Below are positions 11,782 to 53,278 of a DNA stretch of 64,000 nucleotides, piece by piece. The stretch's first letter is position 1. Each line of letters starts with the position of its first letter. The notes beneath the pieces were generated by a model. That model was not told where the DNA came from and did no database searches. It saw only the letters and a program-made list of their open reading frames with translations. Origin of the DNA: Ochrovirga pacifica (GTDB lineage: Bacteria; Bacteroidota; Bacteroidia; Flavobacteriales; Flavobacteriaceae); the NCBI RefSeq assembly GCF_000220525.1, contig NZ_AFPK01000045.1, positions 1 through 64,000 of the forward strand. Direction: 5' to 3'. Position numbers and translations under genes: made by a program.

Positions 11782-13146
11782 ATGTTAAGATCATCCCACA
11801 CACGACTTTTGTTGCTAGTCCTAAGTATTTCAATGATATGCTTAGAGGCTTCTTATGGTCAGAAATTAATTGAAGACAACTTTAATTACTTTGGTACTTC
11901 AGGATACATCCGCACAGGAATGGGACAAAGCGAAGGCGGAGCAACACAAGCTCACTTTGAAATGCCTGGGGCTTTGAATAAATTTAGCTTAGGAAATCAG
12001 GCGGATACCTACGGAGAATTAGAGTTTGATTACACACGTTATTTGAATCTTGATAAAAGCAAATCCATCGACCTTGTTTGGATGACCTCCTTTTACGAAG
12101 CCTTTGGCAGTAAAAACGGAATGCAGTTTGACAAAACTGCCCAACTCTATGTTCGCGGAAACAATTTATTAGGAAACAAGGAAATTCTATGGATAGGAAA
12201 ACGTTATTACCACCGACAAGCCATTCACTTGTTGGACAAACAATGGATGAACCCTGCACAAACAGGGTGGGGACTGGGAATTGAAAACATCATCACCCAC
12301 AAAGGTAAAGAAGATCTAAAATTTGGAGCTTGGGCTTTTGAGGACAAAGCGGTAACCTCTTACATCAATCAAAACCAAAGTGTGCTAAAAGCTTTTACGT
12401 TTGATGCACGATGGGTACACGTACCTATTACCAAAATCAGTTCCATCAACTTAGCGGTTAACTATTCGTTAAGAGCTCAAAATCAAACCTTAGCCTATAA
12501 AAACCGTCATGGCTATGGTACTTTTGCTTGGATAGATACTGAGAAAAACAACATCAGCAATACGTTTGCCGTTTTGTTTAGACAGGGTGCTAATGTAGCT
12601 CAACACCATTGGACAGGAATGTCTCAAAAAGAAAATCCATCGAACAGTACTCTTGTTCAGTATGATTTGACAAAGGCTTATGCTCTGGAAATAAACAACA
12701 ACTTTTTATACGATGATTTTGATCGTTTTGCTCTGAATGCTATTTTGATGAGTGTATTTAAAAATTTTGGTACGCAGCCTTATCAATATCAAAACGGCAA
12801 CAGAGAATATCTAGACCATTTGGGAAACAATATGTATTGGTTGACCGTAGGAGCTAGAGGGATGTATTATATAAATGACTATTTTAAACTCAGCCTAGAA
12901 TTCAGTACGGAATACATCTACAACGAACAGGTCAATACAGAAGGAAATTTACAACGGATTTCCTTTACTCCAGAGCTTTCCCTAAAGAAAGGCTTTTACA
13001 ACCGACCTGTACTACGTCCGTTAATTACCTATGCTTTTTGGAGCAACGATTTGTTGGGACAATTAGGAACCACACCTACCAACGCTCCTTACGGAAACAA
13101 CACAAAAGGCTTTACGTTTGGATTGCAGTTTGAAATTTGGTGGTAA
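11782..13146 (+). CDS. LamB/maltoporin-type carbohydrate porin
   Basis: Outer-membrane sugar-diffusion channel. I choose ATG 11782 (MLRSSHTRLLLLVLSISM, signal peptide) over an in-frame TTG at 11737, because the latter falls within the operator and -7 box. The mature protein opens with FNYFGTSGYIRTGMGQSEGG and then GNQADTYGELEFDYTRYL, typical of LamB-family porins; GKRYYHRQAIHLLD and GWGLGIENI are further family marks. The C-terminus ends in an aromatic (FEIWW), as outer-membrane barrels do. GH97 starts 37 bases downstream. Specificity for alpha-linked oligosaccharides is inferred from the neighbour. Confidence 0.88.
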   Translation: MLRSSHTRLLLLVLSISMICLEASYGQKLIEDNFNYFGTSGYIRTGMGQSEGGATQAHFEMPGALNKFSLGNQADTYGELEFDYTRYLNLDKSKSIDLVWMTSFYEAFGSKNGMQFDKTAQLYVRGNNLLGNKEILWIGKRYYHRQAIHLLDKQWMNPAQTGWGLGIENIITHKGKEDLKFGAWAFEDKAVTSYINQNQSVLKAFTFDARWVHVPITKISSINLAVNYSLRAQNQTLAYKNRHGYGTFAWIDTEKNNISNTFAVLFRQGANVAQHHWTGMSQKENPSNSTLVQYDLTKAYALEINNNFLYDDFDRFALNAILMSVFKNFGTQPYQYQNGNREYLDHLGNNMYWLTVGARGMYYINDYFKLSLEFSTEYIYNEQVNTEGNLQRISFTPELSLKKGFYNRPVLRPLITYAFWSNDLLGQLGTTPTNAPYGNNTKGFTFGLQFEIWW

Positions 13147-13183
13147 TAAAAAAATGAAACAAACACTATTAAAATATAACGTC

Positions 13184-15205
13184 ATGAAAAAAACAACATT
13201 CTATAAACTTGTACTTAGTTTGATCTTGATAACATCAACCGCTATGGCAACTGAAACACAAAAAATAGTTGTTACGTCTCCTGATGGAACAACATACGCA
13301 CAAATCAACTTAGAAAAAGACATTCGCTACTCCATTACTCAAGATGAAGTTTTGGTATTGGCTCCCTCAAAAATAGCCCTCCGTATATCGGACGGAACTA
13401 TTTGGGGTGCACATCCAAGAGTGAAAGAAATTCGCAGAAATTCGGTAAACAAGACAATCAGTACACCTTTTTATAAAAGCAAAAAAATAACGGAAGCATA
13501 CAATCAAGTTCTTATTGATTTTGAGGGAGACTGGAGTTTGGAATTTAGAGCCTATAATGATGGCATAGCTTATAGATTTATAAGTCATAAAAAAGGAAAA
13601 TTTGAAATTAAAAATGAAATAGCAGACTACGAATTTGTAAACGATGCACAAGCAACGGTTCCCTATGTATATAGTCCTGGTGATTTGGAACACCAATTGT
13701 CACAGGCTTTTGAAAACACGTATACGCGTTTAAAAATATCAGAACTGGACAAAGAGCGTTTGATGTTTTTACCATTGACTGTAGCTGCACCCAAAGGAAA
13801 ACGAGTAACAATTACAGAGAGCGACTTAAGAAACTATCCTGGAATGTATATGCAAACTACAGAAAAGGAAAACACTTTAAGTGCTTTTTTTGCTCCCTTG
13901 CGTAATGAAGTAGAAGAACACTCAGGCTACAACAATTTGCAAGTTACCGTAAAATCTCGTCATGAATACATTGCCAAAGTCAATCAAAAAAGGAGTTTTC
14001 CATGGAGAACTGCCATTGTTACACGCAACGACGTGGAACTTGCCAATACAGACATGTCTTACTTATTGGCAGAAGAAAATGTGATTGGAGACACCAGCTG
14101 GATTCAACCTGGAAAAGTGGCTTGGGACTGGTGGAACAACTGGAACTTAGAAGGCGTGGACTTTAAGGCTGGAATTAACAACCAAACCTACAAATACTAC
14201 ATCGATTTTGCTTCTAAAAATGGGATTGAATACGTGATTTTAGACGAAGGATGGTCCGTAAATAAAGTATACGATTTAATGCAAGTGGTACCAGAAATTG
14301 ACTTGGAAGAACTCATAGCCTATGGGAAAAAAAGAAATGTAGGCATTATTTTGTGGGCAGGCTACTATGCATTTGACAAAGACATGCAAAAAGTTTGTGA
14401 ACATTATAGCAAAATGGGAGTTAAAGGTTTTAAGGTCGATTTTATGAATGGAGACGACCAAGAATTGGTACATTTTAACGAGCGCGTGGCCAAAATGTGT
14501 GCAAAGTACCGCTTATTGGTGGATCTACACGGAACTTACAAACCGGCTGGATTACAAAGAACCTACCCAAATATTTTGAATTTTGAAGGTGTACATGGTT
14601 TGGAACAAATGAAATGGCAACCACAAACCTGTGATCAGGTAACTTACGATGTTACCATGCCCTACTTACGTATGATCTCTGGACCTGTTGATTATACACA
14701 AGGAGCTATGAACAATGCTGTAAAATCTTTGAACACCATTACCAACCAAGTAGAAACACAATACTATCCAAACTTTTCTAAACCGATGAGTCAAGGAACA
14801 CGTATGCATCAATTAGCAGAGTATGTTATTTTCTTTTCGCCTTTAAACATGTTGTGTGATACGCCTACCAATTATGAAAAAAACCCTGTGAGTACGGAAT
14901 TTATCGCTTCTATTCCAACCGTTTGGGATGAGAGCAAAACCATTGATGGAAAAATGGGTGAATACATTATTACCGCTCGTAGAAGTGGAGACACTTGGTA
15001 CATTGGCGGATTGAACAACTGGGATGCTAGAAATATTACCATTAATGTAAAAGAAATAACAGGTAAAAGTGGGCAAGCAATTATTTACAAAGACGGAATT
15101 AATGCAGATAACAACGGAGTTGATTTTAAGAAAACTACCGAACATATAACTGATTATATTACCCTACACATGGCTCCTGGTGGAGGATTTGTTGTAAAAC
15201 TATAA
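13184..15205 (+). CDS. GH97 glycoside hydrolase, retaining alpha-galactosidase-like
   Basis: Exported glycosidase, 673 aa from ATG 13184 (MKKTTFYKLVLSLILITSTAMA, signal peptide); an ATG at 13154 is possible. It has an N-terminal beta-sandwich (about 25-290), a (beta/alpha)8 barrel (about 295-560) and a C-terminal sheet domain ending in HMAPGGGFVVKL. Asp419 in GFKVDFMNGDD occupies the nucleophile position of retaining GH97 enzymes, and Glu474 (GVHGLEQMKW) lies 55 residues on, the same interval as Asp415/Glu470 of the retaining Bacteroides enzyme. Inverting SusB-type alpha-glucosidases lack that Asp. Alpha-galactosidase is therefore the better guess, unproven. Same transcript as the porin. Confidence 0.93.
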   Translation: MKKTTFYKLVLSLILITSTAMATETQKIVVTSPDGTTYAQINLEKDIRYSITQDEVLVLAPSKIALRISDGTIWGAHPRVKEIRRNSVNKTISTPFYKSKKITEAYNQVLIDFEGDWSLEFRAYNDGIAYRFISHKKGKFEIKNEIADYEFVNDAQATVPYVYSPGDLEHQLSQAFENTYTRLKISELDKERLMFLPLTVAAPKGKRVTITESDLRNYPGMYMQTTEKENTLSAFFAPLRNEVEEHSGYNNLQVTVKSRHEYIAKVNQKRSFPWRTAIVTRNDVELANTDMSYLLAEENVIGDTSWIQPGKVAWDWWNNWNLEGVDFKAGINNQTYKYYIDFASKNGIEYVILDEGWSVNKVYDLMQVVPEIDLEELIAYGKKRNVGIILWAGYYAFDKDMQKVCEHYSKMGVKGFKVDFMNGDDQELVHFNERVAKMCAKYRLLVDLHGTYKPAGLQRTYPNILNFEGVHGLEQMKWQPQTCDQVTYDVTMPYLRMISGPVDYTQGAMNNAVKSLNTITNQVETQYYPNFSKPMSQGTRMHQLAEYVIFFSPLNMLCDTPTNYEKNPVSTEFIASIPTVWDESKTIDGKMGEYIITARRSGDTWYIGGLNNWDARNITINVKEITGKSGQAIIYKDGINADNNGVDFKKTTEHITDYITLHMAPGGGFVVKL

Positions 15206-15235
15206 TCTGTTACTTCCTCTATTTATTTTTTTTAG

Positions 15236-15271
15236 TCTACTCCCTTTTCTGTAAAGGGAGTAGATTTTTTT
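15236..15271 (+). terminator. Intrinsic terminator of the porin-GH97 operon
   Basis: A 12-bp stem TCTACTCCCTTT / AAAGGGAGTAGA with a short loop, followed by a T run. It separates the operon from the LacI gene. Confidence 0.88.
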
Positions 15272-15303
15272 ATACCACCATTCCAAATCCCTAAAAATGC
15301 CCT

Positions 15304-15311
15304 TATATTTG
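15304..15311 (+). promoter_or_regulatory. -7 box of the LacI-family regulator gene
   Basis: TATATTTG matches TAnnTTTG but lies only 13 bases before ATG 15325, implying a very short or absent leader, or use of the second ATG at 15328. Confidence 0.4.
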
Positions 15312-15324
15312 TAAGAACTGAATC

Positions 15325-16407
15325 ATGATGAATAAAAAAGTCACTTTTAAAGATGTAGCCGCATTGGCTGGCGTTTCTACACAAACAGTATCTAGAGTTA
15401 CCAATGGTGGGAAAGGTGTAGATCCTAACACCCTAAAAAAAGTACAAGAGGCCATAGATACTTTGGGATATGTACCTAATAAAGGAGCACAGTTGTTGGT
15501 TCAGAAACAAGTAAAAGTTTTAGGCATTATTACTTTAAAAATGTCTATGGAGGGTGCCATGAACATTGTAGAAGGAGTTCGTTTGGAAAGTAAAAATCAA
15601 AATTATAGCATTGCCCTTACCGTGGTAGAACAGCAAGAAGAAAATCTAGAAGAAGCCATTAGAGAGTTACGATCACAACAAGTAGCGGGCATTGTCATCA
15701 ACTTGGGCGTTTCTAAAAAAATGGCTGAAACTTTGGTTACCAAACATCCGCAAATTTCTTTTTTGTTTATAGATGTACCCACAGACACAGCTGTTTCGCA
15801 AATTTCATCCAATCATCAACAAGGGGCACAACAAGTAGTACAACATTTATTAGCACAAGGACATCAACACTTTGGTTTGTTAAATGGGCCTCAAAACTCT
15901 TGGGCAGCAAAACAGCGTAAAACTACTTGGGAAGAAGAAATCAAAAAAGCAAAACAACAAATTATTGTACAAGCAGAAGGAAATTGGACTGCAGAAAGTG
16001 GTTATACAGAAACGCTTAAAATGTTGCAACATCCTAAAAAATTTTCTGCATTGTTGGTAGCTAGTGACCAAATGGCACTAGGTGCTTTAAGAGCTTGTGC
16101 AGAACAGCAGATTGATGTACCCGTACATTTGTCCGTTACAGGTTTTGACGATACTCCAGACAGTGCTTATTACCCCCCCCCACTAACCACAGTAAAACAA
16201 AATTTTTTAGAAATAGGTAAACAAGCCGTTAAGACTTTACTAAGTCAAATACATCAAGAAAACGCTATCAGCAAAAAACAAATTGATTTGGAATTTGTTG
16301 AAAGACAAAGTACTGCCAAACCTAATTATGCTGTTACTAATACCGAAGAAATTAAAGAATTGTTACACAAAATACACGGTTTACTTCCGCATATTTCTAA
16401 ACCTTAA
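15325..16407 (+). CDS. LacI-family transcriptional regulator
   Basis: DNA-binding sugar-responsive repressor, 360 aa. The N-terminal helix-turn-helix VTFKDVAALAGVSTQTVSRV and hinge helix region NKGAQLLVQKQ are standard, followed by a periplasmic-binding-like sensor domain (about 65-335; VTGFDDTPDSAYYPPPLTTV). It most likely controls the porin-GH97 operon through the operator at 11733-11748. A run of nine C at 16173-16181, encoding prolines, is striking in such AT-rich DNA and could slip. No operator is visible at its own promoter. Confidence 0.95.
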   Translation: MMNKKVTFKDVAALAGVSTQTVSRVTNGGKGVDPNTLKKVQEAIDTLGYVPNKGAQLLVQKQVKVLGIITLKMSMEGAMNIVEGVRLESKNQNYSIALTVVEQQEENLEEAIRELRSQQVAGIVINLGVSKKMAETLVTKHPQISFLFIDVPTDTAVSQISSNHQQGAQQVVQHLLAQGHQHFGLLNGPQNSWAAKQRKTTWEEEIKKAKQQIIVQAEGNWTAESGYTETLKMLQHPKKFSALLVASDQMALGALRACAEQQIDVPVHLSVTGFDDTPDSAYYPPPLTTVKQNFLEIGKQAVKTLLSQIHQENAISKKQIDLEFVERQSTAKPNYAVTNTEEIKELLHKIHGLLPHISKP

Positions 16408-22947: not shown

Positions 22948-25374
22948 TTAAAAAGAATAGGCCACCGAAGCGGCAATATTTCTTCCTGGTGCACTAATAG
23001 AAGAACCAAATTCTTTGTAGTGTACATCTAAAATATTTTGCCATTGCAACTGCAATCTTAAAAAAGGAAACAAAAAGTATTGCGTATTAAAATCAAAAAC
23101 ATACCAAGATGGTGTTCCTTGCTCAAAAGGAGTTTCGTCTAAATTGTCTATGCCTTCGGTTATATTGTAATCTTTTAACTGTTTTCTAAAGGAAAACCTA
23201 CAATCTAAAGTCATGGTGTATTTGGGCTTGTACATTCCCAAAGAAACATGTCCGTAAAAAGGAGGTATTGACGACAACGATTCACCAAAATCATACGATT
23301 TTCCTTTGGTGTAAGTAGCGCTTAGTTGCGATTTTATGTTGTTATAAACAGGAAGCATTGCACTAAGCGTAGCTCCGTATACATAAGCTTTACCCAAATT
23401 GGTATTGGCCAAAATAGCCTCATTTTCAAACACATCTCCATCATATTCTATACGACTTCCAAACTCATCCGTTGCATACCTTGCAATGTAATTGTCTAAC
23501 AGAGTATAATATACATTTAGATTAACATCTCCTTTGTTGTTTGCAAACATTTTTGAGTATCCTGTTTCAAAACTATACAAATGTTCGGGTTCTAATTGCG
23601 TATTAGGTACTGTTAGTTTGGAAGATTTTGATCTGATTTTCCCTACATCATCTACATTTGGAGATCTAAATCCTTTAGAAATTACCACACTTATTTTATC
23701 ATCCTCATCGGGTTTGTAAATATATCCTACCGATCCAGTAAGTGACGTATTGTTTAACCTAATAAAATTGTCTGGAATTGGAATTGCTACATTTTTATCC
23801 CAATCTGCCGTTAATAGTGTATGCGTAAACCTTAGTCCAAAATTCAGTATATGTTTTTCATCCAGTTGTTGTCTGTAAGAAGTATACAAAGCAGCACTGC
23901 TGTATGTACTCCCTCCGTCAGGATAACGTGTATCTACTGCATAGTTGCTTTCTACTCCTGTTATTTTGTTATTCATCACACTTAAGGTTTCTCCTTTTGC
24001 TGTAGATTGCACATCGTTGTGCATCCATTCTAATCCGTAAAACAGTTTTCTTTTACCATCTCTTGTTAATGATTTGTAAAAATCACTATTCAACGAAAAA
24101 ATAGTAACCTCTTCAAATCTTGAAGTACGATCTCTAGAACCAAATTGCCTATTAATTCTAGATTCTTCTACATCTTGATATGCTAGTGTGATTGTCCCAT
24201 TTTCTAGCAATGACTGATATCCGTTGAACTGTGCCTGTGCAGAAATTAACATTCTTTTTTGAGGTCCATAGCTCCATTCCGCAAATTTTAAATCTCCAGA
24301 TTTTTCATCATTCAGCTTTCCAAAATTGGGAATATTGCTAGTATTGCTATACTGTCCGTTAATTACCAAATCAATGTCTTTGTGAATTGGAAACATAAAC
24401 TTCTGCAACACATCCCACTGCTTGTATCCTGTATTTTTTTGCACATTAGGATTTTTATTAACCGTGCTATTATTGTAATAATCTGTTTCTGTATTTTGTG
24501 AGTAGCGATTTACTTTTCCCCAATTAGGATAATTGTGCAAACGGTTTTCCCCCATTTTTAAATCTCCAAAAGAGTTGAAAGAAACATTGGTATAAGATAC
24601 CCATTTTTGGTGTGATGTGTAAGAATCAAAACCTACAGAATGTTCGTTATTAACCGTACTATGTCTATAAAACAACTGATTTTTAAGTTCTGGATTTTCA
24701 TGATAACTCAACTTTTTAGTGTAGTAATGAATCACTCCTCCCAAAGCATCCGAACCGTAAGCAACAGAAGTGGGGCCAAAAACAACCTCAGCCCTTTCTA
24801 TGGCAAGCGGACTTACCGTAATTGAGTTTTGCAAATGTCCTTTTCGGTAAATGGCATTGTTCATTCTTACACCATCTACCACCAACAAAATACGATTGGA
24901 TTCCATCCCTCTAATTACCGGAGATCCTCCTCCAAACTGAGATTTTTGAACCCGAACTCCTGGTATTTGAGCCAACAAATCTGCAGAAGTTTGTGCCGAA
25001 ATCTGATCGATATTTTTTTGGGTTAGCATTTCTATATGCTCGGGTATTTTGTGTTTCTTTTCAGCTGTTCTAGAGGCCGAAAGCACAATTTTTTGCAAAC
25101 CTTCGTATTTGGGTTTAAGCTGTACTTTTGGAGTAAGGTCTGTTTTTTTTAGTTTTAGAGTATCATAATTTAAATGATAAATATACAATTGTCCCATTTC
25201 TTTTTTTAGCTCTGCAATTCCTCTGGGATTGGTGACTTTTTTTGTACCCGATTGCACACATTCTACCACCGCACCTTCTATACTTTCTTGGGTATAGGAG
25301 TTGACTACCTTAATTTTTTGAGCAAAGGCATGAATACTTACTAAAAAACAAATAAAAAATACGAATCTAATCAT
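22948..25374 (-). CDS. TonB-dependent receptor (haem/siderophore-type)
   Basis: 808-aa outer-membrane transporter. Signal peptide MIRFVFFICFLVSIHAFAQ, a short carboxypeptidase-D-like domain (about 20-95), plug domain (GVRVQKSQFGGGSPVIRGME, ILLVVDGVRMNNAIYR, VVFGPTSVAYGSDALGG) and a barrel ending in VAYSF. FRSPNVDDVGK followed by VPNTQLEPEHLYSFETGYSK corresponds to the FRAP/NPNL region of haem and cobalamin receptors, but the key His of haem receptors is not evident there, so the ligand is open. One base separates it from recO's stop, so the recO-receptor arrangement is operon-like. Confidence 0.93.
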   Translation of the reverse strand: MIRFVFFICFLVSIHAFAQKIKVVNSYTQESIEGAVVECVQSGTKKVTNPRGIAELKKEMGQLYIYHLNYDTLKLKKTDLTPKVQLKPKYEGLQKIVLSASRTAEKKHKIPEHIEMLTQKNIDQISAQTSADLLAQIPGVRVQKSQFGGGSPVIRGMESNRILLVVDGVRMNNAIYRKGHLQNSITVSPLAIERAEVVFGPTSVAYGSDALGGVIHYYTKKLSYHENPELKNQLFYRHSTVNNEHSVGFDSYTSHQKWVSYTNVSFNSFGDLKMGENRLHNYPNWGKVNRYSQNTETDYYNNSTVNKNPNVQKNTGYKQWDVLQKFMFPIHKDIDLVINGQYSNTSNIPNFGKLNDEKSGDLKFAEWSYGPQKRMLISAQAQFNGYQSLLENGTITLAYQDVEESRINRQFGSRDRTSRFEEVTIFSLNSDFYKSLTRDGKRKLFYGLEWMHNDVQSTAKGETLSVMNNKITGVESNYAVDTRYPDGGSTYSSAALYTSYRQQLDEKHILNFGLRFTHTLLTADWDKNVAIPIPDNFIRLNNTSLTGSVGYIYKPDEDDKISVVISKGFRSPNVDDVGKIRSKSSKLTVPNTQLEPEHLYSFETGYSKMFANNKGDVNLNVYYTLLDNYIARYATDEFGSRIEYDGDVFENEAILANTNLGKAYVYGATLSAMLPVYNNIKSQLSATYTKGKSYDFGESLSSIPPFYGHVSLGMYKPKYTMTLDCRFSFRKQLKDYNITEGIDNLDETPFEQGTPSWYVFDFNTQYFLFPFLRLQLQWQNILDVHYKEFGSSISAPGRNIAASVAYSF

Positions 25375-30099: not shown

Positions 30100-30900
30100 T
30101 TACAACTGTTCACTAAAAAACTGCAGAGTATCAACCACATGCGTTTCCCAATAAATCCACTCATGTTTTCCAGAAAATTCTTGATAAACATGTGCTATTT
30201 TTTGCTCTTTTAACTGTTGATGCAACAACCTATTGTGCTCTATTAACTCATCATCTTTACCACAGTCAAAACGGAAAGGAGGCAACAAGTCTTTGTTTTT
30301 TTTCATCCACTTAAATACGGATTGATTGGTAGCATCTTCTTGTTGATAATTTTCCAAGCCTTCTTCTACAAACAAAGCCATTTGTGGCAAATCGGTAATA
30401 GAACTATGCCCAGAAATGGCTTTAAAAGTCTTAGGATATTTTGCTCCAATACGCAATGCTCCATACCCTCCCATAGACAACCCTGAGATAAACACAGGAG
30501 ATTGTTCTGTAACCACTTCTATATTTTCTTTTACAGCATCAATTACATCTTCTGAAATCCACTTTTCAAAATTCAAACTATGATGTGGCAAATAGCCCGA
30601 TCCATCTCCCCACAAACCGTCGGAAGGCATGGCAATAATCATAGGTTTAATAGCTCCAGACTCCATTAATTTTTGAGCGGTTCTGTGTACTCCTGCTTTT
30701 TGAGACCAAATCCAAGCACTACCATATACCCCATGCATTAAAATAACTAATGGGGTATCTGTTGTTAATGCTACATTGGGTACAAACAAGCAAATATCTC
30801 CTCTTCCTTTTAAGTTTCTTGTCTTTACGGTAATAAATCGCAAATTGTCTGATTCAAATCTAGGATCTGAAATTTCTGTTGTTTTAAATTTTGATGCCAT
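30100..30900 (-). CDS. Esterase D/PF00756-type alpha/beta hydrolase
   Basis: 266 aa with no signal peptide, so cytoplasmic. Oxyanion region VILMHGVYGSAWIW, nucleophile Ser in ISGLSMGGYGALRIG, and likely Asp/His near DCGKDDELIEHN and FSGKHEWIYWE complete a Ser-His-Asp triad. PF00756 includes sugar esterases and S-formylglutathione hydrolases. It starts 3 bases after the GH2 stop and is the last gene of the P450 operon, so it probably removes an acyl group from the sugar, or handles a formyl adduct; the sequence does not decide. Confidence 0.85.
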   Translation of the reverse strand: MASKFKTTEISDPRFESDNLRFITVKTRNLKGRGDICLFVPNVALTTDTPLVILMHGVYGSAWIWSQKAGVHRTAQKLMESGAIKPMIIAMPSDGLWGDGSGYLPHHSLNFEKWISEDVIDAVKENIEVVTEQSPVFISGLSMGGYGALRIGAKYPKTFKAISGHSSITDLPQMALFVEEGLENYQQEDATNQSVFKWMKKNKDLLPPFRFDCGKDDELIEHNRLLHQQLKEQKIAHVYQEFSGKHEWIYWETHVVDTLQFFSEQL

Positions 30901-30903
30901 AGG

Positions 30904-33417
30904 TTATTCTTTAATAAAGACTGCTTGGTTTTGTGCTGAAAAGTCTTCACTTTTTACTTTGATTTTAATAGTACCTGTTTTAACAGCTTTCACAAACACC
31001 ACCGCTTTTCCCTTGTAAAAATTACGTTTTGGTACAGTAAGCGTTTGTAAATTGGTAGGGTCTCCATTTCCAGAAGCCAAAAACTCACCAGCTCCAGAGA
31101 CTTCTATATTTATTAACTTCTCGTAATTAGGTTGCCAATTTCCATTTGCATCGGTTACTATAATTCTATACACCACAACTTCTCCTTTTTTAATGGTAGT
31201 AACCTCGGGCGTTATGGTAATTTTTGCTGCTGGTTTTGCGGTTTTATAAACTAGTGTTTCTTTAGCTTTACCTCTTTTGTCATAAGCCACTACTTTTAAT
31301 TCTCCTGGCTGATACGTGATATCTTCCCAAACAATTGCATACATTTTCATTAATTCTAATGAAGTTCCACCAGAACCATGAATAGAGAATTCTTTATTTA
31401 AAAACTTAGAAGGATCTAATTCTTCTTTGGTTTTTACACCATAGCTTTTTCCATTAATAAACAGTTCTGCTTTGGCGTAATTCGTATAACAAACCACTGG
31501 AAAAGTAGTTCCTTCCGGAGCAGGATTGGACCAGTGCGGAAACGCATGCAATACCTTTTCAGCAGTATTCCAACGCCCTTTGTACAAATAAAACTTATCT
31601 TTTTCTAACCCTACAAAATCAACAGGAGCAAAATAAGAACTACGAGATTTGGCTTCGTGGTAAGGTGAGGGTTCTCCTAGGTAATCGTAACCTGTCCATA
31701 CAAACTCTCCATACACATCTTGATTGTAATCTTGAGAGGCAAACTCTTTAAAAGGAGCATACCCCCAACGAACTTGTGTTGTTTCGTAGTTTCCAGGATG
31801 TCCATCTTTAAAAACTTTGGTGTTAACTGCCAATCCTTTTTTATCTCTTAGGGTATCAAAAACAACAGGAAACTTGTATGTATCTCTTAAACTTACCGCT
31901 CCTCCTGTTTCACTAGCATAAAACTTTAAGTTTGGATATTTTTGTCTGTAAATATGATACGATCCTGGCTTGTAATTAAATCCAGCTACATCTACTTTAA
32001 AAGCCATTCCGTTGGTTAAGGCATTAATTGCTGAATTGAATCCGCATGTAGTAGCTCTTGTGGTGTCTACTTTTTTAACAACATCGTTTAAAAAACCTGT
32101 AATGTTATTCGGATCACCTTTGTATTGTTCGTTTATTTCGTTACCGATACTCCACATAATGATAGATGGGTGGTTACGATCTCTGTAAACCATGTCGGTT
32201 AAGTCTGCTGCTGCCCATTTGTCAAAATGTTTAGAATATCCATTGATTACTTTCCCTATTTGCCATTCATCAAATGCTTCATCAATAGCTAGCAATCCCA
32301 TTTCATCACAAATATCCAAAGCTTCTGGTGCCGGAGGATTGTGAGAAAAGCGAATGGCATTTACCCCCATTTCTTTCATCTTTTTCATCTGTCTTCGAAA
32401 CAAATTTGGATAAAATGCTGCTCCTGTAGGTCCTAAATCATGATGCATATTTACCCCTTTAAAGCGAACTTTTTTTCCATTAAGGTAAAATCCATCTACC
32501 TTAAAAGCTAAGGTCCTTATTCCAAATGGTGTTACCACAGCATCTTGTGTTTTGTCATTTTTAATAAGCGTAGTTTTTAACTGGTACATGTTTGGATTTT
32601 CAATACTCCACAAAGACAAATCACGTTTTTTAAGTTTTATTTCTGCAACTGCTTTCTGTACCTTGTTTGCATTGATTTCTTGCGTATGGCTTGCCACTAT
32701 TTTTCCTTGTGCATTCATAATATCATGCTGAACCACAACGATTCCTTCTCCTACTACATTTACCTCGGCACGCACTGTCGCTTTACTTTTTGTTACGACA
32801 GGTGTGGTAACAAAAGTTCCCCAAGTAGGAATATGCACTGGTTCTTTTTGAGTTAAGGTTACTTTTCTGTACAAACCTGCCCCAGGATACCAGCGTGATT
32901 GACTATTAAAATTTTCTAAACGTACCGCTAACACATTTTTCCCTTTTATAAGATACTTACTAATATCAAAATAAAAAGACAAATAACCATTTGGACGTTC
33001 ACCAACATAAGCACCATTTACGTAAACTTTGGCATGACTCATCGCTCCATCAAACATTAAATTATACACTTTATTAGTGTCTTGAATTGCAAATGTGGTT
33101 CTGTACCATCCTACTCCTGTGTAAGGCAAAGCCCCAGAACGACCATGACGGTATTTGGGTTTGGTCTCACCATCTTGTCTTACCATAGTGAGCTGAATAT
33201 CGTTTGCAAAAGAAAATTCTCCTTCCACAGCCCAATCGTGAGGAACGGTTATTTTTTTCCAGTCAGAATCGTTAAAATTTTCTTGAAAAGCAGCTCCATA
33301 ATCGTATTGAGAGAACTTCCAGTCTTCTAATAAAGTAACTTTTCTTGTTTGCGCATGTAATTGCAATGTTGCTACAAAGAGCAAGATCCAAAGGAATTTT
33401 AATTTGGTTTTTATCAT
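30904..33417 (-). CDS. Exported GH2 beta-galactosidase-like glycosidase
   Basis: 837 aa with signal peptide (MIKTKLKFLWILLFVATLQLHAQ). Jelly-roll sugar-binding domain (about 25-180, EDWKFSQYD, VPHDWAVEGEF, GWYRTTF), immunoglobulin-like domain, TIM barrel with acid/base Glu427 (MWSIGNEINEQ) and nucleophile Glu503 (FYASETGGAVS), then further beta domains with DUF4982-like character. GH2 enzymes in red-algal galactan loci cut terminal beta-galactose units, including 6-O-methyl-galactose. Position in the P450 operon supports that role; exact specificity is inferred. Confidence 0.93.
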   Translation of the reverse strand: MIKTKLKFLWILLFVATLQLHAQTRKVTLLEDWKFSQYDYGAAFQENFNDSDWKKITVPHDWAVEGEFSFANDIQLTMVRQDGETKPKYRHGRSGALPYTGVGWYRTTFAIQDTNKVYNLMFDGAMSHAKVYVNGAYVGERPNGYLSFYFDISKYLIKGKNVLAVRLENFNSQSRWYPGAGLYRKVTLTQKEPVHIPTWGTFVTTPVVTKSKATVRAEVNVVGEGIVVVQHDIMNAQGKIVASHTQEINANKVQKAVAEIKLKKRDLSLWSIENPNMYQLKTTLIKNDKTQDAVVTPFGIRTLAFKVDGFYLNGKKVRFKGVNMHHDLGPTGAAFYPNLFRRQMKKMKEMGVNAIRFSHNPPAPEALDICDEMGLLAIDEAFDEWQIGKVINGYSKHFDKWAAADLTDMVYRDRNHPSIIMWSIGNEINEQYKGDPNNITGFLNDVVKKVDTTRATTCGFNSAINALTNGMAFKVDVAGFNYKPGSYHIYRQKYPNLKFYASETGGAVSLRDTYKFPVVFDTLRDKKGLAVNTKVFKDGHPGNYETTQVRWGYAPFKEFASQDYNQDVYGEFVWTGYDYLGEPSPYHEAKSRSSYFAPVDFVGLEKDKFYLYKGRWNTAEKVLHAFPHWSNPAPEGTTFPVVCYTNYAKAELFINGKSYGVKTKEELDPSKFLNKEFSIHGSGGTSLELMKMYAIVWEDITYQPGELKVVAYDKRGKAKETLVYKTAKPAAKITITPEVTTIKKGEVVVYRIIVTDANGNWQPNYEKLINIEVSGAGEFLASGNGDPTNLQTLTVPKRNFYKGKAVVFVKAVKTGTIKIKVKSEDFSAQNQAVFIKE

Positions 33418-33473
33418 TTTATTTTTTTTGATGTTTTTAGGTTATTTTTTGATGGATTGTATCAAAGACAAAA

Positions 33474-33516
33474 CACCACACTCATTCTCTCTAAAACAGA
33501 AAGTATGTGTATGGTG
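33474..33516 (-). other. Possible stem-loop in the longest gap of the P450 operon
   Basis: CACCACAC and GTGTATGGTG can pair (8 bp, 2-base bulge). On the minus strand a T-rich stretch follows. It lies in the 126-base gap between the dehydrogenase and GH2 genes and could be a partial terminator or processing site that sets their ratio. Confidence 0.3.
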
Positions 33517-33543
33517 GTTGTTTAAATTGCTATGTAGCACAAA

Positions 33544-34677
33544 TTAGTCAAATGTTATGACTCCTTTTGCGTTTCTTCCTGCCAACATATCATCAAACCC
33601 TTGTTGAAGATCTTCTAACTTGTACGTGCGGGTAATCATTTCCTCCAAAATTAAATCTCCTTTTTCGTACAAGGCTTCAAATTTTGGGAAATCAATATCT
33701 GGTTTTGCTCCTCCGTATAATGGGTTGATATATATTTTATCCCACTCAAACAAACGCATGTCTACGGTAATTTCTTCTTCAATACCACTTACCTGTACCG
33801 CTGTACCTGCATTACGAATCATGGCTAACGGAGCAACACCCAAGGCCGGAACAGCAGTACATTCAAAAGCATAATCTGCCCCTCTTCCTTCTGTCATTCC
33901 TTTAACAATTTCAGCAGCTTTCAATAAACCTTTATCTTCTTTGTCTGCCAAAATCACATCTGTAGCTCCAAATTGTTTGGCCATTTCTAAACGTTGCTCA
34001 TTTATATCAACAGCAATAATTTTGGCTGCTCCAGATATTCTTGCTGCTTGCACCACGTTTAAACCTACACCTCCTGTTCCTAATACCACAACAGAGCTTC
34101 CCCATTCTGGTTTTGCTGTATTGAATACAGAACCACATCCTGTCATGACTCCACAGCTAATAGTAGATGCAGCCTCAAAAGATAATTTTTTAGAACGTTT
34201 TTTTACAACTCCCGAAGCTCTTACCAATGCATATTCAGAAAAAGTTCCTAAGTTAAAAGAACGCTCTATTGGCTTGTCATTCCATGTTGTAGCTTCAAAA
34301 GTTGGGTGACCTCCAGAAATTTTTCCTGCATGACTTGCCATCACAGGTGAATTGCATTCACAAATATTTTGATTCCCCAATTGAGATTGATAGCCATCAT
34401 ACTTTGGAGTTGCCCAGTTTAAAATCACCTCATCTCCAACAACCACTTTGGTTACATCTGGCCCTACCGCTTCTACAATTCCAGCACCTTCATGTCCCAT
34501 AACAATAGGCATATCCCAAGTTAGAGAATCATGATCTGTGTGACAGATGGCAGCTGCCTTGATTTTTACCAATACCTCATCTCCTACGGGTGCTGCAATT
34601 TTTGTCTGCTCGATAGTAAAAGTTCCATCTGTATGAGCTATTGCTGCCTTACTTAATATGAATTCTTGTTTGCTCAT
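33544..34677 (-). CDS. Zinc alcohol dehydrogenase of the 6-O-methylgalactose module
   Basis: 377-aa medium-chain dehydrogenase. Catalytic zinc ligands are Cys45, His62 (MGHEGAG) and Cys175 (STISCGVMTG); the NAD site is VVLGTGGVGLNVV with Asp in IAVDINEQ. The structural-zinc lobe, which normally has four closely spaced Cys, keeps only Cys106 and Cys108 (NICECNS). In porphyran-using flavobacteria a Zn-ADH gene is conserved beside the P450 genes; from memory, it was reported to be needed for growth on 6-O-methyl-galactose yet not to detoxify formaldehyde. Its true substrate is unsettled. Confidence 0.9.
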   Translation of the reverse strand: MSKQEFILSKAAIAHTDGTFTIEQTKIAAPVGDEVLVKIKAAAICHTDHDSLTWDMPIVMGHEGAGIVEAVGPDVTKVVVGDEVILNWATPKYDGYQSQLGNQNICECNSPVMASHAGKISGGHPTFEATTWNDKPIERSFNLGTFSEYALVRASGVVKKRSKKLSFEAASTISCGVMTGCGSVFNTAKPEWGSSVVVLGTGGVGLNVVQAARISGAAKIIAVDINEQRLEMAKQFGATDVILADKEDKGLLKAAEIVKGMTEGRGADYAFECTAVPALGVAPLAMIRNAGTAVQVSGIEEEITVDMRLFEWDKIYINPLYGGAKPDIDFPKFEALYEKGDLILEEMITRTYKLEDLQQGFDDMLAGRNAKGVITFD

Positions 34678-34721
34678 TTGTATTTTGTTTTCTAGATGCT
34701 ACTTGCATCTTCTCGTTTTTT

Positions 34722-35954
34722 TTAATTGATTAAAACATCTTTGATGTTTACTGCTGCATCGGCCAACTTCTCTTTGTCTATTTTTGCTTCTGTTTTGATA
34801 AATTTAGTTCCCATTACATAGCTTTTAGCGTTGTTGATGGCATCTACTGCTAACAAACGATCGTTCTTAAAATACCAAATAGAAAACTTCATCGCTCCTT
34901 CGTTTCTAACGACATAAGAATCGAAATTTTGAGACAGTCCTACTATTTGGAGTTTTACATCGTACTGATCTGACCAAAACCAAGGCAAAGCATCGTAAAC
35001 GGTTGCTTTTCCACAAATATTTGCGGCAGCTACTTTTGCCTGATCGACTGCATTTTGCACAGATTCTAAACGCACATGCACATCGTAAATTTTATTGTAA
35101 TGAAAAGTACAATCCCCTATCGCATAAATGTCTTTTTCTGATGTTTGAGTAGCCGTATTGACTACGATTCCATTATTAATTTCTAATCCGATATCGCTTG
35201 CCAACTCTTGGTTGACTCTAATTCCAACACCTACAACAACAAGATCTGACGGATAAGTAGTACCATCCGCACAAACTACAGTGTTTTTATTTCCGTCAGA
35301 TTGAATTTCTGTAACACTTTTATCTACATCTATATGTACGCCATTCGCTTTGTGCAAATTGGCAAAAAATTCAGACAAATAAGGGGTGGTTACACGAGCC
35401 AAAATACGCTCTTCTCGTTCTAATACCGTAACGTTGGCTCCAAGTTTTTTTAATGAAGCAGCGGTTTCCAAACCAATATAGCCTCCACCAATCACCACAA
35501 TATTTTTCTGTTTACTGTTGTGAAAAGCAGTACGAATACCCTCTACATCCTTGGCATTACGCAAGGTAAATACATTTTTAGCCTTGTTAATTCCTGATAT
35601 TGGAGGAACAAAAGCTCTAGCTCCTGTTGCCAACACCAACACGTCGTACTTTTGAGAAGTACCATCACTTAAACTAATGGTTTTATTCTCTTTATCTATC
35701 TTGGCTACCTCTTTTCCTAAAGACAGAGTAATATTGTCTTTTTCATAGCTTTCTAAAGGTTTTAGCAAGTTATTTTGAATGCTATCTTCTAGTTCTAAAT
35801 ATTTTTTTGACAAAGGAGGTCTGTGATACGGAGTTGTTTGGTCTTTATCAATCAACACAATAGCTCCTTTCCAACCTTCTTTACGCAATGCAAAGGCAAA
35901 ATTTACCCCTCCGTGGCTAGCCCCTATGACAACACAAGTTTTATTTTGTGACAT
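34722..35954 (-). CDS. NAD(P)H-dependent ferredoxin reductase (FAD), P450 electron donor
   Basis: 410 aa, related to putidaredoxin and rhodocoxin reductases. FAD-binding CVVIGASHGGVNFAFALR, NAD-binding VVIGGGYIGLETAASLKKLG, and the C-terminal FAD contact DIYAIGDC, then a reductase C-terminal domain. It passes electrons from NAD(P)H to the [2Fe-2S] ferredoxin 16 bases upstream and so to the P450. The position between ferredoxin and dehydrogenase genes fits a three-component monooxygenase. Confidence 0.94.
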   Translation of the reverse strand: MSQNKTCVVIGASHGGVNFAFALRKEGWKGAIVLIDKDQTTPYHRPPLSKKYLELEDSIQNNLLKPLESYEKDNITLSLGKEVAKIDKENKTISLSDGTSQKYDVLVLATGARAFVPPISGINKAKNVFTLRNAKDVEGIRTAFHNSKQKNIVVIGGGYIGLETAASLKKLGANVTVLEREERILARVTTPYLSEFFANLHKANGVHIDVDKSVTEIQSDGNKNTVVCADGTTYPSDLVVVGVGIRVNQELASDIGLEINNGIVVNTATQTSEKDIYAIGDCTFHYNKIYDVHVRLESVQNAVDQAKVAAANICGKATVYDALPWFWSDQYDVKLQIVGLSQNFDSYVVRNEGAMKFSIWYFKNDRLLAVDAINNAKSYVMGTKFIKTEAKIDKEKLADAAVNIKDVLIN

Positions 35955-35970
35955 GTTTTTTACTTTGTTA

Positions 35971-36285
35971 TTAGTCTTCTTTTGCTACGGTTAATTCAAT
36001 TCCGTCTATGGCTTCAGAAACTTCTATCTGACAACACAAACGACTAAAATCTGAAACATTGTCTTCCAATTCTAACATATCCGCTTCTATTTCTCCAGCC
36101 TCTCCTACTTTGTCCATGTCATTTTCTGCTACAAATACATGACAGGTGGCACAAGAGCACACCCCTCCGCAATCACCATCAATTCCTTCTACACCATTGT
36201 TTACAGCCAATTGCATTACGTTTCCTGAATCTCCTTCTACCGTTACTTTTTCTCCGTCTTTGGTAATGAATGTTATTTTTGCCAT
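35971..36285 (-). CDS. [2Fe-2S] ferredoxin, putidaredoxin type
   Basis: 104-aa electron carrier. Cluster ligands Cys39, Cys45 and Cys48 (DCGGVCSCATCHVFV) and Cys85 in RLCCQI reproduce the CX5CX2C...C spacing of adrenodoxin/putidaredoxin. Acidic overall, suitable for docking to a P450 and its reductase. It starts 40 bases after the P450 stop. The partnership is inferred from order and family. Confidence 0.95.
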   Translation of the reverse strand: MAKITFITKDGEKVTVEGDSGNVMQLAVNNGVEGIDGDCGGVCSCATCHVFVAENDMDKVGEAGEIEADMLELEDNVSDFSRLCCQIEVSEAIDGIELTVAKED

Positions 36286-36325
36286 CGTTCTTGTTGTTTT
36301 ATAAGTTGTTTTTGTAATTAGTATA

Positions 36326-37486
36326 TTAAATAGCGTTGAATTTTACGCTTAGGGAATTGAACCCTACTTTTCTTTTGAATTCATCCAAATCTTCTACATT
36401 GTCTTCATGTGCCAAAATATCGATAGATTTTACTTTTTGTACCATTTCTGATAGAATGATGCGCAGCAAAGCTCGTGCATGGGTAGCTCCCAAACAGTTG
36501 TGCGTTCCAAAGCCAAAACTTACGTGTGGATTTACTTTACGATCCAACACTACTTCTTCTGGATTGGCAAAGGTTTTTTCGTCTCTGTTAGCAGAAGCCC
36601 AACACAAAGATACTCTAGATTGTGCTTTGATGTCTTGCTCACACACTTGCGTATTTTTAGTTACTACACGCCCCATATGAGTTAACGGTGCGTAATAACG
36701 AATCAGCTCCTCAATAGCCGTATTAATCATCTCAGGACTTTCCTTGATGCGTGCTAACGATTCCGGATGCTCTGCAAAATAAGCTATGGAATTGGTAATG
36801 GCATTAATCACTGTATCACGGCCTCCAGCAAAGGTCAAAATCATCACTCCTTTTACCTCTTCTTTGGTCAATTTTTTTCCATTGACCTCTGCATTCACCA
36901 ATTTAGAATACAAATCGTCTGTAGGATTTTTAATAGCTCGATCTATTTCTTTGTCAATATAATCGTATAAAATATTGGCTTTATCAGCATCCAAATGTGT
37001 GTCTTCGCTTCTAAATACATGTGTTCCCCAACCAATCCAAGTTTCCGATTCTTCAAAAGGCGTGTTTAACAAGACCGTTAAAGCTCTGGATTGAATTACC
37101 AATGAAAACTCACTCACCACTTCGATGGTATCCTTAGATAATACATCGTCTAACACAACATTAACAATTTCTTTCAAACGACTTTGATACGCATCTTCAT
37201 TAGGTCTTTTAAACCAAGGCTCTACTAAATTTCGATAATCGGTGTGCTCTGGCGGATCTACTTCAAAGGGAATTTGTCGAGTATCGCGAATGTGTACTTC
37301 TGAAGGCACTACAATACGCCCAACTTCCTCACCTCCTGACTGAAATGTTTTCCAATCTTTGGCAGATTTGCGTACGTCTCTTAAACGCAATAAAATTTTT
37401 ACTGGATCGTCTTGATCGTTCATATCTCCATATCCTTTTTCTGCTCGTGCATGAGCAAAAGGACAAGCCATTTTACTTTTATCCAT
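36326..37486 (-). CDS. Cytochrome P450, probable 6-O-methyl-D-galactose demethylase
   Basis: 386 aa from ATG 37486 (MDKSKMACPFAHARAEKG); a start 60 bases upstream lies in promoter-like sequence. Class I soluble P450: I-helix LTFAGGRDTVINAI, K-helix ExxR in IEELIRYYAP, heme-thiolate Cys331 in FGFGTHNCLGATHAR. With ferredoxin, reductase and ADH it matches the four-gene module (CYP236A group) known from Zobellia and Formosa that oxidatively removes the methyl group of 6-O-methyl-D-galactose, giving galactose and formaldehyde. The subfamily assignment rests on gene context and memory, not an alignment. Confidence 0.88.
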   Translation of the reverse strand: MDKSKMACPFAHARAEKGYGDMNDQDDPVKILLRLRDVRKSAKDWKTFQSGGEEVGRIVVPSEVHIRDTRQIPFEVDPPEHTDYRNLVEPWFKRPNEDAYQSRLKEIVNVVLDDVLSKDTIEVVSEFSLVIQSRALTVLLNTPFEESETWIGWGTHVFRSEDTHLDADKANILYDYIDKEIDRAIKNPTDDLYSKLVNAEVNGKKLTKEEVKGVMILTFAGGRDTVINAITNSIAYFAEHPESLARIKESPEMINTAIEELIRYYAPLTHMGRVVTKNTQVCEQDIKAQSRVSLCWASANRDEKTFANPEEVVLDRKVNPHVSFGFGTHNCLGATHARALLRIILSEMVQKVKSIDILAHEDNVEDLDEFKRKVGFNSLSVKFNAI

Positions 37487-37557
37487 ATCGTTACGTAGTG
37501 GTATTTTTTTTGAATAATACAAAAATGACACTATTATTTGTTGCATATTTTTCGGAT

Positions 37558-37588
37558 TTTGTCAATTATTTGAACTATTTTAACTTTG
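37558..37588 (+). promoter_or_regulatory. Promoter of the AraC-family regulator
   Basis: TTTG (37558-37561), exactly 19 bases, then TAACTTTG (37581-37588): a full match to the Bacteroidota TTTG-N19-TAnnTTTG consensus. ATG is 38 bases downstream. The divergent P450 promoter must share this 140-base gap. Confidence 0.7.
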
Positions 37589-37626
37589 CACTTCGTTTTA
37601 ACATCAATATTGGACACTTTTGATTC

Positions 37627-38481
37627 ATGAAAGCCATTAAAGAACTTATCAATCAGCCTTTTAACCGATCTTTTAGTGTAAGTGAATACCAGCAGCCATA
37701 TTTCGATTCGCCATGGCATTTTCATACCGAATATGAACTAACTTATATTCACAAAGGTCACGGAACACGCTTTGTAGGCTCTAGTGCAGAACTTTTTCAA
37801 GAAGGAGATTTGGTTTTGATAGGTTCTTCTGTACCTCACTATTGGCGATGTGATGATGTATTTTATCATCAAAATAGTTCAAAAGTTCATAGTGTGGTTA
37901 TACAGTTTAAACCCGAGTTGTTTTTTAAAAATCCTTTACCAGAGATGAGTCAAATTCATCTTTTGCTTAAAAAATCGGCTAGTGGAATTACCTTTATCAA
38001 CAGTGAAACGTACAAAAAGTATTTTTTTGACTTACTACAAGTAGAAGGCATGGAACAGTTGCTATTATTTTATCAATTATTAGATAAGTTAAGTAGAGAA
38101 GTTCAACAAAAAACCTTGTCTATTACCCATGATTCGCAATTGTATCAATCTAAAGATAGTAAGATTTTTCAGGAAGTCATCAACTATATTTTTAGCAATT
38201 TTAAGCAAGAAATATCCCTGTCAGATTTATCTGAAAAGGTACATATGTCTACCGCTGCTTTTTGTCGCTATTTTAAAAAACGTACCAAAAAAACCTTTAC
38301 TGAATACGTAAATCATTTAAGAATTTCCCAAGCTAGTAAATTGTTGATTGAAACCGACATGAGTGTGTCTCAAATTTGTTTTGAGTGTGGCTACAACAGC
38401 CTTAGCTATTTTAATCGTCAGTTTAAAAAAATCAAATCTATTGGACCTAAAGAATACAGAAAATTGCATTTAAAGGAATAA
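37627..38481 (+). CDS. AraC-family transcriptional regulator
   Basis: 284 aa. The N-terminal cupin-like sensor domain (about 15-110; SPWHFHTEYELTYIHKGHGT) typically binds a sugar; the C-terminal double helix-turn-helix (about 185-283; SLSDLSEKVHMSTAAFCRYF, QICFECGYNSLSYFNRQFKK) binds DNA. Divergent from the P450 operon across a 140-base gap, so most likely its regulator, sensing 6-O-methyl-galactose, galactose or a related oligosaccharide (inference). Confidence 0.94.
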   Translation: MKAIKELINQPFNRSFSVSEYQQPYFDSPWHFHTEYELTYIHKGHGTRFVGSSAELFQEGDLVLIGSSVPHYWRCDDVFYHQNSSKVHSVVIQFKPELFFKNPLPEMSQIHLLLKKSASGITFINSETYKKYFFDLLQVEGMEQLLLFYQLLDKLSREVQQKTLSITHDSQLYQSKDSKIFQEVINYIFSNFKQEISLSDLSEKVHMSTAAFCRYFKKRTKKTFTEYVNHLRISQASKLLIETDMSVSQICFECGYNSLSYFNRQFKKIKSIGPKEYRKLHLKE

Positions 38482-51067: not shown

Positions 51068-53278
51068 ATGATTAAATTAAACTATTGTCTATTATTACTA
51101 TTGTCCTGCTCTTTTAGTTTTGCACAAATTTGCAAAGGAAAGGTTACTGACAATAACGGAACTGCTATCGATTATGTTTTGGTAACCCACGCACAAAACA
51201 AAATGCACGTTCATACTTCTTTTGATGGGGTTTTTGAAGTAGGAAACCTAAAAAAAGGAGACACTTTAATATTTTCTAAAATGGGTTACCAACCATTAAA
51301 AAAAGCCTATAATCAAAATCAAATATTGGTCGTATTAACCCCAGAAACCGTTTCTTTAGAACAGGTGGTTTTAACAAACGATATTCACAATGCAAGCGTT
51401 ATTACCGCTTTGGATATTCAAAAAAATCCTATCAAATCTTCACAAGAAGTATTAAATAAAATTCCTGGATTGGTAATTGGTCAACATGCAGGTGGTGGTA
51501 AAGCAGAACAAATTTTTTACCGAGGTTTTGATATAGACCACGGAACCGATTTACAGATTAATGTAGATGGTATTCCTGTAAACATGGTGTCTCATGCACA
51601 CGGACAAGGATATTCAGACCTACATTACGTAATTCCAGAAACCATTGAGGGAATGGATTTTTTACCAGGAACTTACAACCCTAAACAAGGAAACTTTGCT
51701 ACTACAGGAACCGTAAACATCATCAGCAAAGAACGTTTGCAAAACAACAAATTGCAACTAGAAATTGGTCAATTTGATACTCAACGCTTGTTGTTTATGA
51801 ATTCATTCATCAACAAAGCCAACGAAAGTGCTTACATCGCTACAGAGTATATCAGTTCTGATGGCCCTTTTGATAGTCCTCAAAACTTTAAACGTTTTAA
51901 CATAAGCAGCAAATACGCTAAAACAATACAAAACACCAAGTTTGTATTCTCTTTATCTCATTTTATGAGTAGCTGGAATGCCTCTGGACAAATTCCACAA
52001 AGAGCTGTAGATAGTGGAATCATTGGTCGTTTTGGTGCCATTGATGATAGCGAAGGTGGAGAAACATCTAGAACCAATGCTTCCTTAAGCATTCAAAAAA
52101 AATACGATGATCAATCGGTATTTAAACACTTGTTGTACTATAGCAATTATCAGTTTGATTTGTATTCTAATTTTACGTTTTTCCTAAACAATCCTGTAGA
52201 CGGAGATCAAATTTATCAAACTGAACAAAGAAATCTTTTTGGTTACCAATCAGATTATCAAAAAGAATTGTTTTTGACCAATGAAAAGTCGGTATTGTTA
52301 TTGGCTGGAATTGGAGTACGTACAGATAGAGTAGATGATATTGCACTAAACAGAACCAAAAACAAAACAGAATTATTAAGCCAGGTTCAAGACGGAAAAG
52401 TAAACGAAACCAACTTTTTTGCTTATGTAGGAGCTGATTTTGAATTGAACAAATGGAAACTTAGTCCGTCCGTACGTTTGGATAGGTTTAGTTTTGGCTA
52501 CCAAGATAATTTAATGGGAGATGGAAAGTTGAATGAGCAAAGAGCAATTGTAGTAAGCCCCAAATTAAGCACCACCTATACCCCAAACAATCAGTGGCAA
52601 TTATTTGCAAAAATAGGACAAGGATTTCATACCAACGATAGTCGTCTGGTGCTAAACACTTTAGGAGATGATATTCCAAAAGCCTATACTTCTGATCTTG
52701 GTTTTGTATGGAAAACTACCCCAAAATTGCTATGGGCCTTTACGGCTTGGGGAATGATTTCTGAACAGGAATTTGTATATGTGGGTGATGAAGGAGTGGT
52801 AGAGCCTAATGGAGAATCTATTCGTAAAGGTCTGTCGTTAACCACTCGCTACCAACCAATCAAACACTGGTTTTTAAATGTAGATGCAGATTATACTCAT
52901 GCTCGATTTAGAGACGAACCTAACGGTGCTGATTATGTGCCTTTAGCTCCAGATTTTGTGGTAAAGGGAGGAATTGCTTACAAAAAAGAAAAAGGTTTTT
53001 ATGGTAATATAAATATGGTTCACATCAACGATCGTCCTGCCAATGAAGACAATTCTATTGTAGCCAATGGCTATACCGTAACCCATTTAAACTTAGGCTA
53101 CGCTTGGGATAAAATTAATTTTGGGGTGCAAATTCAAAATTTGTTCGATGTAGACTGGAACGAAACTCAGTTTGCTACCGAATCTAGATTAGCAACCGAA
53201 ACCAATTCGGTAGAAGAAATTCACTTTACACCAGGAACCCCATTCTTTATCAAAAGTAGTATTTCTTATAAATTTTAG
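51068..53278 (+). CDS. TonB-dependent receptor of the DUF4331 locus
   Basis: 736 aa. Signal peptide, carboxypeptidase-D-like domain (about 20-95), plug (IPGLVIGQHAGGGKAEQIFY, RGFDIDHGTDLQINVDGIPV) with a His-rich segment NMVSHAHGQGYSDLHYV, and a barrel ending FFIKSSISYKF. The His residues in the plug hint at metal or metal-complex handling, unproven. It starts 9 bases after the TPR gene. The ECF sigma/anti-sigma pair opposite may regulate the unit. Confidence 0.92.
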   Translation: MIKLNYCLLLLLSCSFSFAQICKGKVTDNNGTAIDYVLVTHAQNKMHVHTSFDGVFEVGNLKKGDTLIFSKMGYQPLKKAYNQNQILVVLTPETVSLEQVVLTNDIHNASVITALDIQKNPIKSSQEVLNKIPGLVIGQHAGGGKAEQIFYRGFDIDHGTDLQINVDGIPVNMVSHAHGQGYSDLHYVIPETIEGMDFLPGTYNPKQGNFATTGTVNIISKERLQNNKLQLEIGQFDTQRLLFMNSFINKANESAYIATEYISSDGPFDSPQNFKRFNISSKYAKTIQNTKFVFSLSHFMSSWNASGQIPQRAVDSGIIGRFGAIDDSEGGETSRTNASLSIQKKYDDQSVFKHLLYYSNYQFDLYSNFTFFLNNPVDGDQIYQTEQRNLFGYQSDYQKELFLTNEKSVLLLAGIGVRTDRVDDIALNRTKNKTELLSQVQDGKVNETNFFAYVGADFELNKWKLSPSVRLDRFSFGYQDNLMGDGKLNEQRAIVVSPKLSTTYTPNNQWQLFAKIGQGFHTNDSRLVLNTLGDDIPKAYTSDLGFVWKTTPKLLWAFTAWGMISEQEFVYVGDEGVVEPNGESIRKGLSLTTRYQPIKHWFLNVDADYTHARFRDEPNGADYVPLAPDFVVKGGIAYKKEKGFYGNINMVHINDRPANEDNSIVANGYTVTHLNLGYAWDKINFGVQIQNLFDVDWNETQFATESRLATETNSVEEIHFTPGTPFFIKSSISYKF

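Follow-up and report, generated by a model that had tools for sequence, protein, structure and literature searches.

The closest described systems are the gene clusters of Zobellia galactanivorans and Formosa agariphila that demethylate 6-O-methyl-D-galactose (G6Me), a sugar accounting for up to 28% of porphyran (PMC10033563). For homologues of the window proteins discussed below, the chemistry of the cytochrome P450 has been shown, and normal growth on G6Me requires the alcohol dehydrogenase (ADH) gene; Zobellia knockouts of the CYP or the ADH grew poorly on G6Me and normally on galactose (PMC10033563). A GH2, a GH16, and an esterase were described in the context of the Formosa cluster (PMC10033563). 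Because so much of porphyran is G6Me, the extent to which carbon from red algae is used depends on the removal of this methyl group. Reisky et al. 2018 is reportedly a further source on the G6Me demethylation cluster of Z. galactanivorans and F. agariphila.

Operon layout and gene identification

We analyzed the first 64,000 nucleotides of an Ochrovirga pacifica contig (NZ_AFPK01000045.1), hereafter the window. Its region 30100–38481 comprises seven genes: six run in the same direction on the minus strand, and an AraC gene is divergent from them. The predicted G6Me O-demethylase, a P450 of the CYP236A type (36326–37486; Cys ligand motif FGFGTHNCLG), is followed by a 2Fe-2S ferredoxin of the putidaredoxin/adrenodoxin type (35971–36285; PF00111, with TIGR02007 below its cut-off), an FAD-type ferredoxin reductase (34722–35954; PF07992 and PF14759), a Zn-dependent ADH of the FoADH/ZoADH type (33544–34677), a GalB-type GH2 β-galactosidase (30904–33417; Pfam GH2 domains and a signal-peptide-like N-terminus), and an α/β-hydrolase esterase (30100–30900; PF00756 at 64.9 bits, signal peptide not apparent). 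The intergenic gaps are, in this order, 40, 16, 44, 126, and 3 bp. The AraC-family regulator (37627–38481, plus strand) has a cupin-type sensor domain (PF12833 and PF07883), and a divergent AraC gene was also found at most flavobacterial P450 loci. These positions and families match the initial annotation, which had placed the six enzyme and electron-transfer genes in one operon facing an AraC regulator.

The most likely start of the P450 is 37486 and not the longer open reading frame start 37546, because 6g5o and relatives align from MDKSK. In the divergent promoter region (37487–37626), a four-sequence alignment gave a block, TAGTTCAAA...AATCCGAAAA, common to the promoters of the window, L054, and L055, which weakly suggests a candidate AraC operator. 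No RNA families or tRNAs were found in the window.

The best PDB match of the P450 was 6g5o, a solved demethylase of the Zobellia type (E 1.7e-174; 384 aa aligned at 65.6% identity), which we take to be a CYP236A enzyme; it scored 584 bits, against 157 bits for the runner-up among the PDB P450s, and its sequence is 97.7% identical to that of a Zobellia uliginosa gene from a locus of this type. The kinship with CYP236A proteins anticipated by the initial annotation was thus borne out. A P450 was assigned to the CYP236A cluster type at more than 55% identity to tested demethylases; the window P450 lies above this value, a ferredoxin and a ferredoxin reductase adjoin it, and an ADH of the FoADH/ZoADH type and an esterase accompany it. 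The best PDB matches of the ADH were 8h2a (E 1.7e-169) and 8h2b (E 2.8e-162), which we took as the FoADH and ZoADH of PMC10033563 from the enzyme type and the cysteine numbering.

What was observed here are gene identities, gene order, and co-occurrence, and from these the operon is very probably an AraC-controlled G6Me demethylation unit, a function predicted for these proteins. The nearest solved structures of the P450 and the ADH, the conserved order, and the cluster description in PMC10033563 strongly support this reading, and because of them the original identification was right. The finding is real and of the kind proposed; it is a new member of an already known operon type and not a stand-alone novelty.

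In the proposed scheme, the AraC-controlled operon would serve the use of G6Me from porphyran or methylated agar. Endo-acting porphyranases or agarases and sulfatases from other loci of the genome would produce oligosaccharides, from which the exported GH2 would take off galactose or G6Me at the terminus. Electrons would pass in the cytoplasm from NADH through the ferredoxin reductase and the ferredoxin to the P450, which would oxidize the methyl ether to give D-galactose and formaldehyde. Formaldehyde would then be oxidized by the ADH and the esterase as a pair, most likely as a thiol adduct, with the ADH converting S-hydroxymethyl-thiol to S-formyl-thiol and the esterase hydrolyzing this thioester to formate. 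The GH2 substrate, the regulation, and the ADH–esterase step are parts of the scheme that we infer. The best PDB match of the GH2 was 5t98 (E 3.8e-186), and its substrate is not fixed by its relatives; G6Me release is plausible by analogy, as Bacteroides plebeius BpGH2C cleaves terminal galactose, both methylated and plain (PMC12316285).

Conservation of gene order

The identical seven-gene order was found in an uncultured Flavobacteriaceae (L054), Aquimarina algicola (L055), Salegentibacter agarivorans (L096), G382/L186, and G169/L189, and because it is repeated gene for gene, the order is not due to chance. The Zobellia loci (L087, L094, L095, L102, and L122) share the P450–ferredoxin–reductase–ADH...esterase arrangement and the divergent AraC. 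The agreement with the Zobellia and Formosa module claimed earlier therefore holds for P450, ferredoxin, reductase, ADH, and esterase, and, in Zobellia, fails for the GH2, which is missing there between ADH and esterase but present in the window operon. Formosa has both a GH2 and a GH16. A GH2 is likewise placed in L054, L055, L072, and L096, and 5 of the 40 family genomes with the pair have it between the ADH and the esterase. Unlike the Zobellia and Formosa clusters, the window operon has no polysaccharide utilization locus (PUL), sulfatase, or L-galactose genes nearby, its ADH has no intact structural zinc site, and the genome has no ribulose monophosphate (RuMP) synthase.

The conserved order was seen in 72 named P450 loci, in nearly all of which the ferredoxin adjoins the P450. 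In 34 of the 72, one or more GH16, GH86, sulfatase, SusC, or SusD genes were detected nearby; the remaining 38 are an upper figure for PUL-free loci, because the flanks were mostly 10 kb and detection was conservative. A PUL-free location of the P450 operon is not unusual. The G382 operon shares the chromosomal position of the window operon, with TrpRS, CYTH, and RecO as neighbors.

The P450–ferredoxin–reductase trio was also observed in gammaproteobacteria (Catenovulum, Gayadomonas, Colwellia, Neiella, Agaribacter, Pseudoalteromonas, Shewanella, and Thalassotalea; L060, L062, L063, L065, L083, L088, L097, L099, L108, L110, L111, L114, L118, and L123), often with a more diverged ADH–esterase pair.

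The ADH–esterase pair and the fate of formaldehyde

We surveyed 397 family genomes with thresholds of E ≤ 1e-100 for the ADH and E ≤ 1e-40 for the esterase. Both were found in 40 genomes, exactly the same 40, and in all of them the esterase lay downstream of the ADH on the same strand, either adjacent or after a gap of ~2.6 kb. The P450 was present in 28 of the 397 genomes, all among these 40; as 12 genomes carry the pair and no P450, its occurrence is not confined to G6Me users.

In FrmA/FrmB and the mycothiol equivalents, a medium-chain Zn-ADH likewise has as its partner an esterase from the Esterase/FGH superfamily, and the window esterase weakly resembles S-formylglutathione hydrolase and feruloyl esterases. 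In contrast to FrmA/FrmB, the window proteins scored far under the equivalog cut-offs (206.7 against 543.95 for TIGR02818, FrmA; 39.3 against 281.7 for TIGR02821, S-formylglutathione hydrolase), and their homologues were inactive with known thiols (PMC10033563). FoADH and ZoADH, which have narrow active sites, were inactive when assayed on formaldehyde together with any of several thiols (PMC10033563).

RuMP is the formaldehyde route reported for Zobellia. The RuMP synthase had no match above cut-off in the O. pacifica genome (34.5 bits against 200), which rules out this sink here, and was above cut-off in 5 of the 28 P450 genomes; therefore, the Zobellia route does not apply generally. Another class III ADH was also rejected as the sink, as no class III formaldehyde dehydrogenase was found among the ADH paralogues of this genome.

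PhyH-family oxygenases and the role of the pair

The 12 genomes in which the ADH–esterase pair occurs without the P450 all encode a PhyH-family oxygenase, which is found in 33 of the 369 P450-less genomes overall (hypergeometric 3e-14, which is not a true probability because the species are related). The PhyH gene lies within ~6 kb of the pair in eight of the 12 genomes and directly beside it in seven. Loci L228–L239 and L240–L269 cover the PhyH genes next to the pair in P450-less genomes and, elsewhere, next to L-galactose/L-fucose catabolic genes. The HxD...H and Arg residues typical of Fe(II)/2-oxoglutarate enzymes are retained in PhyH, as judged by eye from the alignment. Where PhyH was unlinked to the pair in P450-less genomes, the ten genes scanned beside the pair included no other oxygenases and gave a galactokinase, esterases, an amidohydrolase, peptidases, or no family. 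Many P450-less loci adjoin genes of the L-fucose/L-galactose oxidative pathway (a FucP-type symporter, SDR dehydrogenase, lactonase, Zn-oxidoreductase, tagaturonate reductase, altronate-type dehydratase, KDG kinase, and KDPG aldolase), and the P450 locus of Zobellia is flanked by the majority of these genes. We do not claim PhyH as a proven demethylase, because 21 genomes have PhyH without the pair, several of them beside L-galactose/L-fucose genes.

The occurrence of ADH and esterase in the same 40 genomes, the link to P450 or PhyH, and the mostly missing RuMP synthase suggest that the pair removes formaldehyde, a role beyond the published assays, which could not show it; taken alone, this role has in our estimate an even chance of being correct. 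The competing explanation is that the ADH, with the esterase, serves another step, such as NADH regeneration or the removal of aromatic or furanic aldehydes derived from algal sugars, and is merely co-regulated with the P450. The homologues prefer aromatic aldehydes in vitro and do nothing with formaldehyde (PMC10033563), and in P450-less genomes the pair often stands beside L-galactose/L-fucose catabolic genes; however, the ADH knockout was impaired on pure G6Me and not on galactose (PMC10033563), the obligate pairing with an esterase mimics a thiol-dependent formaldehyde route, and every pair-bearing genome carries a P450 or PhyH oxygenase. We consider this explanation a serious one, with a somewhat less than even probability.

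Under formaldehyde removal by the pair, a shared need would account for one pair accompanying two kinds of oxygenase. The pair might then be a portable, thiol-dependent formaldehyde-oxidation module serving two unrelated sugar O-demethylases, the CYP236A P450s and, in genomes lacking these, a PhyH acting on a methylated algal sugar, which we regard as possible but rather doubtful; alternatively, the PhyH link could reflect a common way of life on galactans of red algae. If the module existed, its role and a second sugar O-demethylase (PhyH) would both be new, and no mention of a link between PhyH and the ADH–esterase pair was found in the literature searched. The value of the locus lies in this comparative clue on the pair. 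Given the exact co-occurrence of ADH and esterase, the link to two oxygenases, and the mostly missing RuMP synthase, the formaldehyde hypothesis for the ADH needed for growth on G6Me in Zobellia is now directly testable.

Loss of the structural zinc site and mosaic history

The structural zinc ligands of FoADH and ZoADH are Cys88, Cys91, Cys94, and Cys102 (PMC10033563). The window ADH has K, G, S, and C at these positions, with three of the four cysteines lost, and residues aligned with the catalytic zinc ligands Cys41, His58, and Cys169 are present. Among the 51 ADHs aligned, the structural set was missing only in those of the window, G212, and L055, which formed one fully supported clade on a long branch (window 33544–34677; L158; L055:12778–13911). 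This loss provides a natural variant for structure–function work.

The P450 tree grouped the window with L054 and L055 (100/100) and placed G212 in another supported group. Identity to G212 was 92% for the ADH and 70% for the P450, and identity to L054 was 73% for the ADH and 91% for the P450. The A. algicola L055, L054, L096, and G382 operons have the same order as the window, but the nearest relative differs gene by gene. Because the ADH and P450 trees conflict and the nearest relatives differ by gene, the operon is, as judged from the trees, a mosaic reshuffled gene by gene among relatives; simple inheritance as a block is ruled out by the conflicting supported trees.

A mosaic operon with an altered ADH could also have diverged in function, with the P450 acting on a different methyl ether or another substrate, and an identity of 66% allows specificity changes. 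This is improbable, as the partners and the order are the same as in the functionally tested clusters, the P450 is present in a single copy, and the genome has a porphyran-degrading gene set.

Genomic context of the operon

When the GH16, GH86, sulfatase, SusC, and SusD proteins encoded by this genome were used as blastp queries, none of these was found in the window, as originally stated, and no SusC/SusD pair with enzymes, which defines a PUL, lies there. The description of the operon as lacking visible agarases was nevertheless an artefact of the window size. The genome (3.38 Mb, 77 contigs) gave 15 GH16, 62 sulfatase, and 20 SusD matches, which are domain matches, a few GH16 and sulfatase genes giving two. 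The search for porphyranases in the rest of the genome, suggested in the initial annotation, gave GH16 enzymes and four matches above cut-off to the GH86 porphyranase catalytic domain (Porphyrn_cat_1) on contigs C73 and C35. A GH16 on contig C7 is strongly PorB-like (E 2.7e-112 to Zobellia porphyranase B), and another on C39 matched 4awd, the Bacteroides porphyranase BpGH16B (E 2.6e-62). GH16 proteins of this genome are also 57–60% identical to GH16 enzymes adjoining the P450 in other species (L090, L103, and L117), and SusC/SusD pairs are also present on other contigs.

With its PorB-like and BpGH16B-like GH16, GH86, and sulfatase genes, the genome appears equipped to attack porphyran. As porphyranases and agarases are encoded elsewhere in the genome, the operon is, by gene content, one island of a dispersed porphyran system. 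Of the two sources of methyl-galactose considered earlier, distant loci fit the enzymes of the genome, and release by others is not needed. A stand-alone scavenger that has no porphyran cutting of its own and lives on G6Me freed by other bacteria would agree with the absence of porphyran-type polysaccharide-cutting genes from the window and with a locus set between TrpRS and a gene with no Pfam family, but is highly improbable in a genome with PorB-like and BpGH16B-like GH16, four GH86, about 60 sulfatases, and 20 SusD.

The neighbors of the operon had been called housekeeping on both sides, which needs correction in two respects. A sugar unit of a LamB porin, a GH97, and a LacI regulator (11737–16407) lies at a distance of about 14 kb, which means that housekeeping genes are not the sole neighbors of the operon, and two TonB receptors occur with no SusD (22948–25374 and 51068–53278). 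Elsewhere in the window, an HTTM/vitamin K-dependent γ-carboxylase-like protein (7121–8452; PF05090 and PF22777) adjoins pheS.
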